48,882 nt of DNA from positions 1 to 48,882 of the forward strand of contig QHWJ01000250.1 in assembly GCA_003222535.1 (NCBI GenBank), written 5' to 3'. The notes beneath the pieces are model-generated. The model did not search any database, was not told the origin of the DNA, and saw only the letters and a list, made by a program, of their open reading frames with translations. Within the stretch, counting starts at the first letter, position 1; every line of letters begins with the position of its first letter. This DNA comes from Acidobacteriota bacterium. Its GTDB lineage: Bacteria > Acidobacteriota > Vicinamibacteria > Vicinamibacterales > CAVVIG01. Below, piece by piece: positions 4,654-40,751 of this stretch. The translations under genes and the position numbers were made by a program.

Positions 4654-4674
4654 CGACGCATTGTTTTGGACAAG

Positions 4675-4784
4675 CCACCGAGACACTGAGACACAGAGGC
4701 GCTCGACGCGGTCGGCCTGCACCGCAGGCCGAGCCGTGAGGCGCGCGTGTTTCTTCCCTGTGTCTTTGTGTCTTCTATGTGGCC
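4675..4784. repeat. inverted short-word array, GACACAGAG family
   Basis: The left arm (4675-4701) is built from CACCGAGACACTGAGACACA-type words. The right arm (4746-4784) is their approximate reverse complement (CTGTGTCTTTGTGTCTTC). The centre is a tight hairpin, CGGCCTGC-ACC-GCAGGCCG, at 4713-4731. The array sits where the MFS and PRC-barrel genes converge and could stop transcription from both sides. Confidence 0.75.
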
Positions 4785-5264: not shown

Positions 5265-5431
5265 ACGCCCGTGCTTCCGCAAGCCTTGTGCCAGCGGACA
5301 CGTCCGGAACAGCAGGTTAGCCACCCCACCGCGCAAACCACGCGCGCCGGGGGCCCCGGTTCTCGGTCGTCGCGCCTTGCCATCGGGGCGCCTCGCCGGC
5401 CTCGGTGCGACGCCGGGACTTTCACCACGGG
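5265..5431 (-). ncRNA. structured repeat copy B, possible HEARO/omega-RNA-like RNA
   Basis: Read on the minus strand it starts CCCGTGGTGAAAGTC (5417-5431). It shares several blocks with the element at 40413-40715: GTGAAAGTC, CGCACCGAGGC, CGATGGCAAGGCGCGAC, GACCGAGAACCGGGGCCCCC (5349-5368) and GCGCGTGGTTTGCGCGGTGG (5326-5345). The other copy carries extra hairpins between these blocks, which is typical of a structured RNA with variable loops. Its 3' limit is uncertain; I set it at the PRC-barrel start codon. HEARO identity is inference from block architecture and the GTGA left end. It could equally be a cis-acting leader. Confidence 0.45.
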
Positions 5432-5608
5432 CTGTTAGGCGGGCTTGCTCGATCTGAACTGATCGCCACCGCGACCAGCTACCAGAATCGACCAACGGCT
5501 TACAGAGTCGGCAGCGGTCGTCCTTTCGGCCGTCGGGCGAGCGCACGAAAGGAAAGAAGCCCACACAGAGCTGGTGACGCTCATCTCCGCCGGACGCGAC
5601 GGAGTGGT

Positions 5609-9489: not shown

Positions 9490-10557
9490 TCATTGTCGTG
9501 TCTTCTGATGCACATATCTCGCGAGAGCCTGAACGTGTTCCAGCGGCGTCGTGGGCAGGATGCCATGCCCGAGGTTGAAGATATGCCCGGCCCGTCCGTC
9601 CGCGCGCGCCAGCACGTCGTCGGTGGCGGCGAAGACGCGATCGAGCGGCCCGAGCAGGAGGGTCGGGTCGAGATTGCCCTGGATGGCGCGATCGGCCCCG
9701 ATGCGCTCCCACGCGACGTCGAGCGGCGTGCGCCAGTCGGCGCCGATGACGTCGCCGCCCGCGTCACGCAGATCGCCGAGAATCGAGCCGGTGCCAACGC
9801 CGAAATGAATCGTCGGCACGCCGGGCCCGCCTTCGCCTGCGGCTCCGGCGCGGCAGGCGGCGACGTGATCGAAAATCTTCTTCGTGTGCGGGAGGATGAA
9901 CTCGCGATAGTCCGAGGTGTTCAGCGCGCCGACCCATGAATCGAAGACCTGCACGACGTCGACGCCCGCTTCGATTTGCGCGACGAGGTAGTCGCCGATG
10001 ACGTCGGCCAGGGTGTCGCAGAAGCGATGCCACGCCGCGGGGTGGCCGTACATCAGCGATTTGGTGTGCGCGAATGAGGTCGAATGCCCGCCTTCGATCG
10101 CATAAGAGGCAAGCGTGAACGGCGCGCCGGCGAACCCGATGAGCGGGACACGTCCCGCGAGCGCCCCTTTGATCTGCCGGATAGCCTCGAGCACATACCC
10201 CAGCTCCGCGCGGGGCTCGAAGCGCCTGATGCCCGCCAGGTCCGCCTCGCTGCGCAGGGGGTTGTCGATTGCGGGCCCCTCGCCTTTGATGAAATCAAAG
10301 CGAATGCCCAGCGGCTCGAGTGGCAGCAGCAGGTCGGAAAAAAGGATCGCGGCATCGACCTCGATGCGGCGGATTGGCTGGAGCGTCACTTCGGTGGCAA
10401 GATCGGGCGTTCGACAGAGATCGAGCAGCGAATGGCGCTCGCGCAGGCTGCGGTACTCGCTCATGTACCGGCCCGCCTGGCGCATGAACCAGACTGGCGT
10501 GGCGTCGACCGGTTGCCGTCGGCAGGCCTGGAGGAATCGGCTCCCTGCGTCCGTCAG
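9490..10557 (-). CDS. hemE: uroporphyrinogen decarboxylase, probable CTG start
   Basis: A 355-residue enzyme that decarboxylates the four acetate chains of uroporphyrinogen III to give coproporphyrinogen III. The signature PVWFMRQAGRYMSEYR spans residues 21-36. The catalytic Asp lies in LFSDLLLPLE, and the substrate-binding Tyr region is in FAGAPFTLASYAIEGG. The first in-frame ATG is inside the signature and would delete substrate-binding residues, so it cannot be the real start. A CTG at 10555-10557 restores the expected N-terminus. It overlaps the previous stop as CTGA and has GAAGGTG five bases upstream. No ATG, GTG or TTG lies in a useful position. Confidence 0.9.
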   Translation of the reverse strand: MTDAGSRFLQACRRQPVDATPVWFMRQAGRYMSEYRSLRERHSLLDLCRTPDLATEVTLQPIRRIEVDAAILFSDLLLPLEPLGIRFDFIKGEGPAIDNPLRSEADLAGIRRFEPRAELGYVLEAIRQIKGALAGRVPLIGFAGAPFTLASYAIEGGHSTSFAHTKSLMYGHPAAWHRFCDTLADVIGDYLVAQIEAGVDVVQVFDSWVGALNTSDYREFILPHTKKIFDHVAACRAGAAGEGGPGVPTIHFGVGTGSILGDLRDAGGDVIGADWRTPLDVAWERIGADRAIQGNLDPTLLLGPLDRVFAATDDVLARADGRAGHIFNLGHGILPTTPLEHVQALARYVHQKTRQ

Positions 10558-40336: not shown

Positions 40337-40366
40337 TAGACAACGTTTAGACGCGTCCCCTATACT
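40337..40366 (+). promoter_or_regulatory. sigma-70-type promoter ahead of the structured repeat and bactofilin gene
   Basis: TAGACA (40337-40342, one mismatch to TTGACA), an 18-bp spacer and TATACT (40361-40366, one mismatch to TATAAT). Transcription would start near 40373. That is about 40 nt before the structured element at 40413 and 380 nt before the bactofilin ATG. It lies in the divergent gap with iscS. Confidence 0.6.
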
Positions 40367-40412
40367 GGCGGAACCTGGCTCCGGCGCCTCGACGGCAGAC
40401 ACTCTAGAGAGT

Positions 40413-40715
40413 CCCGTCGTGAAAGTCACGGCCTCGCACCGAGGCTCGCGGGCGCCTCGATGGCAGGGCGCGACCCGCCTCCGCCAAGGCTTCGGCGAGG
40501 TTTCGCCCAAGTTCGCGGCTGCGAGAGTGTCCCGCGAACGAAGACGGACGACCGAGAACCGGGGCCCCCCGCGCGCGTGGTTTGCGCGGTGGCAATATCG
40601 GGAATCTCTGAGGGAGGAGCAACGCAGCCAGCCCCGCGTCCCCCAACGCGGTAGCCGCGTTGGCGTGGAGTGGGGATGCATCGCCGGCCGAACGGGGCCG
40701 GACTTTCACCACGGG
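40413..40715 (+). ncRNA. structured repeat copy A, possible HEARO/omega-RNA-like RNA
   Basis: A 303-bp element with imperfect 15-bp inverted ends, CCCGTCGTGAAAGTC and GACTTTCACCACGGG (14 of 15). Inside are many hairpins: GCCTCG-CAC-CGAGGC, GTTCGCGG...CCGCGAAC, CCAACGCGG-TAG-CCGCGTTGG and others. It shares at least five sequence blocks with the element at 5265-5431, among them GACCGAGAACCGGGGCCCCC (40550-40569). It contains no protein-coding frame of note and no IscB or transposase lies nearby. A promoter is placed right in front. HEARO/omega RNA is my best guess from memory. A mobile MITE-like element or a long 5' leader of the bactofilin gene are alternatives. Confidence 0.5.
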
Positions 40716-40751
40716 CTGCCTGCCCCGTCATGACGACAGGCGGAGGATGAC

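Follow-up and report, generated by a model that had tools for sequence, protein, structure and literature searches.

Two decayed palindromic elements in an Acidobacteriota genome belong to a MITE family with IS1182/IS5-type ends and a conserved core hairpin

Two look-alike, hairpin-rich elements lie in a 48,882-nt stretch of DNA (the window; contig QHWJ01000250.1 of assembly GCA_003222535.1) from a member of the Vicinamibacterales in the phylum Acidobacteriota, and raise the question of whether they are structured RNAs, regulatory leaders or mobile DNA. A preliminary description placed them at 40413-40715 (plus strand) and 5265-5431 (minus strand), and regarded them as HEARO/omega RNAs that lack their protein or as cis-regulatory leaders. 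The reading developed here is that of a non-autonomous palindromic element (MITE).

Both elements exist, and the blocks that they share align in the same order, as had been observed. Their limits, set by comparison with other copies of the family, are revised to 40410-40718 and 5320-5434, with positions 5265-5319 excluded from the second element since homology to other copies ends at 5320. The common start GTGAAAGTC proved to be the inner half of an 18-bp terminal inverted repeat, CAGCCCGTGGTGAAAGTC, of which the window holds two exact matches and one with three mismatches, compared with 0.02 expected. Copy 1 (40410-40718, plus strand, 309 bp) is a type-A MITE with nested palindromic insertions that begins with a mutated terminal repeat, AGTCCCGTCGTGAAAGTC, at 40410-40427 (plus strand) and ends with an exact CAGCCCGTGGTGAAAGTC at 40701-40718 (minus strand), bearing out the inverted ends described for it; its flanks (AGAG/CCTG) now carry no target duplication. 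The variable hairpins reported between the shared blocks are indeed present, as GC-rich palindromic insertions nested inside the element. In copy 1, on the plus strand, these are an insertion of about 75 bp that contains hairpins of its own, as read from the sequence (40475-40549; also present in L023, L024 and L028), a palindrome that splits the core hairpin (40559-40594, CCGGGGCCC...GCGCGGTGG) and a further palindrome containing CCCCCAACGCGGTAGCCGCGTTGG (40634-40670); the conserved right strand of the core, GAGGAGCAACGCAGCC, lies at 40614-40629 (plus strand). Copy 2 (5320-5434, minus strand, 115 bp) is the left half of a type-A MITE that has lost its right arm and right end. Its terminal repeat is exact (5417-5434, minus strand) and is preceded by a target-like CTAA (5435-5438), and the left strand of the core, GCGAGGCGCCCCGATGGCAAGGCGCGACGACCGAGAA, occupies 5360-5396 (minus strand). 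A target duplication is visible at neither window copy, copy 2 being without a right end. Both copies look dead, copy 1 through mutation of its ends and copy 2 through deletion of half the element, and they would now be inert passengers. Elsewhere in the window, 25 bp at 4673-4698 match a degenerate MITE-like stretch of L061 at 96%.

The description of two copies was a large undercount. With up to three mismatches and each strand counted separately, the CAGCCCGTGGTGAAAGTC end was matched 102 + 102 times genome-wide, compared with 18 + 17 for the reversed sequence as control, and about 100 copies of the element are dispersed singly in the 8-Mb genome. A 99-nt query found 45 places in the own genome as well as matches in relatives, those in distant relatives that are weak being partly chance. 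The copies read are near-perfect palindromes bounded by the terminal inverted repeats CAGCCCGTGGTGAAAGTC...GACTTTCACCACGGGCTG, and the modal length is 158 bp (41 of the 137 elements with paired 18-bp ends in all genomes). Further length classes of the type-A MITE are spaced about 39 bp apart, and the steps between them are GC-rich palindromes, CCCCARCGCGGCWGCCGCGYTGGGG, with 93 sites in the own genome and none in the control; almost all of those read lie within MITE copies and few outside. These palindromes of about 39 bp enter the MITE at three or four fixed places, and by eye the junctions show direct repeats of 3-4 nt (CGAA, AGC). The 158-bp element has no match in plasmid and phage collections, and a literature search on miniature inverted-repeat elements in Acidobacteria, judged by titles and abstracts, turned up no apparent description of such elements.

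The ends of intact copies carry the signature of transposition. Exact 4-bp direct repeats outside CAG...CTG were found at 18 of 53 own-genome elements when 4.2 were expected from shuffling of partners (maximum 12 in 2000 shuffles), and at 58 of the 137 elements from all genomes when 16.5 were expected (maximum 31 in 5000 shuffles). Agreement at five base pairs is seen in only one of the 137 elements, giving a duplication length of 4. The duplicated sequence is YTAR-like, and YTAR is the target of IS5 (PMC10359306). The family is thus short, high in copy number and without a transposase gene, and it has terminal inverted repeats, a duplication of fixed length and an autonomous partner with the same ends. 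It is this anatomy that establishes the MITE: the window elements are, with high confidence, decayed copies of a non-autonomous palindromic element that shares its 18-bp ends with an IS1182/IS5-type insertion sequence and that, where intact, is found at YTAR flanked by a 4-bp duplication.

The partner came to light in a search of relatives for DUF772 transposases, which led in sister genera to elements of 1.40-1.48 kb bounded by the MITE's own ends. Autonomous elements of this kind are present in G012 (L129, 1460 bp, CTAA/CTAA), G011 (L130) and G025 (L139; L141, TTAA/TTAA), and a decayed element with these ends is present in G009 (L137). Two complete copies of 1457 bp, flanked by CTAC/CTAC and CTAG/CTAG, are found in the closed Vicinamibacterales chromosome OY282382.1, and a 1936-bp copy with the same ends and CTAG/CTAG is found on a Myxococcales contig. 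Among the matches listed for named genomes, the exact 18-mer occurs mostly in Acidobacteriota, and also in Myxococcota, Syntrophobacter, Rokubacteria and Planctomycetales. The partner transposase combines the Pfam domains DUF772 and DDE_Tnp_1, and its best NCBIfam family is IS1182 (164-168 bits) followed by IS5; since these scores lie below the curated cut-offs, which for IS1182 is 270, the family label is approximate. The partner elements resemble IS5 and IS1182 in these domains and in their 4-bp YTAR duplication, whereas the MITE is gene-less and has nothing but the 18-bp ends in common with them. As the ends and the target choice are identical, we infer mobilisation in trans by the DDE transposase, in which the enzyme supplied by a full insertion sequence would cut at CAG...CTG and paste the short element.

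In the own assembly, which is 95.5% complete, no intact partner transposase was found, the only traces being two fragments of about 40 amino acids. Insertion sequences are, however, common break points of MAG contigs. Two candidate mobilisers were set aside: IS701 (DDE_5, PF13546) has no match in the own genome, and the IS1182 and DDE_Tnp_1 matches there are fragments or other elements that lack the MITE's ends. In Syntrophobacter sp. SbD2 many contigs (L153, L171, L199, L205 and L216) break off some 125 bp from a copy of the MITE's 18-bp end, and L153 has by eye a transposase-like start (MAMGKRKHEEQRGMWVAV) near it, which suggests a multi-copy insertion sequence of the IS1182/IS5-type partner family outside Acidobacteriota.

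HEARO copies without a protein exist, and a structured, multi-copy element with GTGA could be the RNA left by an IscB-type element after loss of its nuclease gene. For neither window element did the HEARO covariance model give a match at E ≤ 10, and Rfam at that threshold returned no plausible family of any kind for them; the only Rfam match in the window is a tRNA. GTGA, which had been taken for an adjacent target site, sits inside the terminal repeat instead, and a search for the RRXRR (IscB-type) domain found no match in the own genome, with control genomes equally silent. The elements are like HEARO/omega RNAs of IscB (PMC9755519) in being structured, linked to mobile elements and capable of lacking a protein, and to that extent the earlier reading holds for this multi-copy family. 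Its HEARO/omega identity does not survive the inverted ends, the 4-bp YTAR duplications and the matching DDE insertion sequence, mobility features of another kind that go with another structure, and it is extremely improbable. An integron origin, with the elements as attC-like recombination sites scattered singly, is equally improbable. Integron attC ends carry the motifs RYYYAAC/GTTRRRY, which the TAAC...GTTA ends of these palindromes recall. The ends are nevertheless true inverted repeats, the copies are dispersed singly with 4-bp direct duplications on both sides, and a DDE transposase gene is bounded by the same ends; the cassette arrays and lack of target duplication that mark attC sites were not found.

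A role as the RNA leader of the downstream gene drew on two observations, both of which are borne out. Each window copy precedes a co-directional gene, one encoding a bactofilin and the other a PRC-barrel protein, and a single promoter-like site, against about 0 in shuffles, lies before copy 1 (40337-40366, plus strand, TAGACA-18-TATACT). The site, identified by its match to consensus, is situated between divergent genes, beyond the limits of the element, and may be no more than the promoter of the bactofilin gene. For 54 own-genome elements, with crude gene calling, neighbours showed no preferred direction (downstream, 12 co-directional and 9 opposite; upstream, 10 and 8), which makes a leader role unlikely. 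The two window neighbours are moreover unrelated genes and the two copies are differently damaged, and the leader reading is accordingly very improbable.

What sets the MITE apart is its core, an inner hairpin of about 83 nt in which three conserved tandem G.A/A.G steps are split by covarying pairs. Forty divergent cores align almost gap-free, and the check for covariation that had been proposed for collected copies did reveal compensatory changes. A hand-drawn structure is paired in 92.7% of cells in these 40 sequences (81.3% in shuffles), 99 cells have double changes (30.4 in shuffles) spread over 14 pairs, and the covariation score of 0.310 (0.122 shuffled) was reached in none of 500 shuffles; sliding the structure along the alignment lowers pairing to 26-46%. 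The apparent internal loop of the core consists of the G.A steps, which are present in 37-39 of the 40 sequences at five of the six positions and in 32 of 40 at the sixth, and the pairs between them change from C-G to G-C among sequences. A kink-turn interpretation was dropped, the bulge being on the wrong side. Part of the covariation could stem from template switching between the palindrome arms, but this is not a full account of the core because the G.A mismatches would not be preserved by it.

The core is not tied to one set of ends. Its covariance model matches 67 of 396 Acidobacteriota genomes in a patchy pattern and often in many copies, at most 11 places per genome having been scored so that copy numbers are lower bounds. 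The scores of the window copies are low (19.1 bits, E 0.12; 14.4 bits, E 0.95), as truncation and interruption by insertions would lead one to expect. Positions 9959-10048 of the window also give a weak match (13.0 bits, E 1.7), probably by chance. Across Acidobacteriota the core is found in MITEs of about ten end types. In the own genome, palindromes with the core have the other ends GTGGYCCGYCGCGTAATTACGGC, TGTCCCGTAACAGTGATTCGTTGC (at least 12 copies), GGTCCGTCACGGAATAAGTG, TGGCCTGTGTCGGTTGAACG and TGTTCCGAGTGCGAAGTAGC, and additional ends occur with it in other Acidobacteriota; TGTCCCGTAACAGTGA, TGGTCCGTCGCGTAAT and TCCTCTGGAAACGTGA are among the end types other than CAGCCCGTGGTGAAAGTC. 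The core-bearing palindromes with other ends lie mostly at YTAR-type sites. Since the outermost 8 nt of the different types look related (roughly YRKYCYGT), they probably belong to different members of a single transposase family. Conversely, the autonomous elements have no core, the 18-bp ends being all that they share with the MITE, and MITEs of Polyangia and Kofleriaceae that have these ends gave no core-model match at E ≤ 1. Each of the two parts, ends and core, can thus occur without the other. The mixing may reflect repeated capture of the core, or ends that diverged around it. Among the other types, MITEs with TGTCCCGTAACAGTGATTCGTTGC ends and the same core occupy CTAG sites (L275, L276, L278, L279, L281-L286, L288, L289), and their near identity indicates recent spread. 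At L029:1220-1600, two adjoining MITEs with unlike ends and the same core have one TTAG in common.

Any function of the core, as a cis-acting transposition structure or as an RNA, is a matter of inference. Since individual copies decay, as the two in the window have done, conservation must act on copies that are still moving; the retention of the core across lineages during such decay points to a cis-acting part in mobility. As a hairpin, in extruded DNA or in a transcript, the core might, for example, bring the ends together or recruit a host factor, and that it assists mobility in cis in some such way is quite possible, if short of probable. A functional RNA of a new structured class, carried by the MITEs and transcribed from a fixed strand, would account for the strong covariation, for the tandem G.A steps and two fixed G.U pairs conserved across about ten end types, and for the patchy presence in Acidobacteriota genomes. 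The wobble pairs do not settle the choice between RNA and DNA for the core because the excess of G.U is limited to a few fixed positions. G.U outnumbers A.C by 128 to 23 in the type-A alignment (73 to 23 without one fixed pair), and the 40 diverse cores show an excess at the two fixed pairs alone, with 22 against 19 elsewhere. The lack of direction bias relative to genes also speaks against an RNA, as does the fact that the core strand folds well as single-stranded DNA (z -8.9), and the RNA reading is rather unlikely. It is conceivable, though less likely than not, that the core is a new portable structured module, of RNA or folded single-stranded DNA, which would be needed for MITE spread and would have been combined with about ten transposon ends and used with several transposases.

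Dispersed extragenic palindromes are also typical of REP/BIME sequences with their RAYT transposases, from which the MITE described here differs in its true inverted ends, its duplications and its DDE partner; REPs are 20-40 bp long (PMC3733652). Closer counterparts are the Correia/NEMIS, ERIC and RUP MITEs, which are likewise intergenic, 100-200 bp long and high in copy number, with terminal inverted repeats and target duplications; their transcripts are predicted to form long hairpins, and in RUP the ends provide a link to an insertion sequence (PMC2229807). Unlike these, the present MITE is GC-rich, has a 4-bp YTAR target and nested palindromes, and carries a core hairpin common to elements with different ends. 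The element is therefore ordinary in kind, being a MITE with an identified partner, and its unusual feature is the conserved, portable core. It is possible to misread repeats of this kind as HEARO RNAs or leaders. What began as a puzzling pair of hairpins is thus a large family of MITEs whose transposase partner has been identified, in a phylum where mobile DNA is little studied, and the conservation of the core amid different ends offers a testable case that a folded nucleic acid, besides the ends, decides the success of a MITE.
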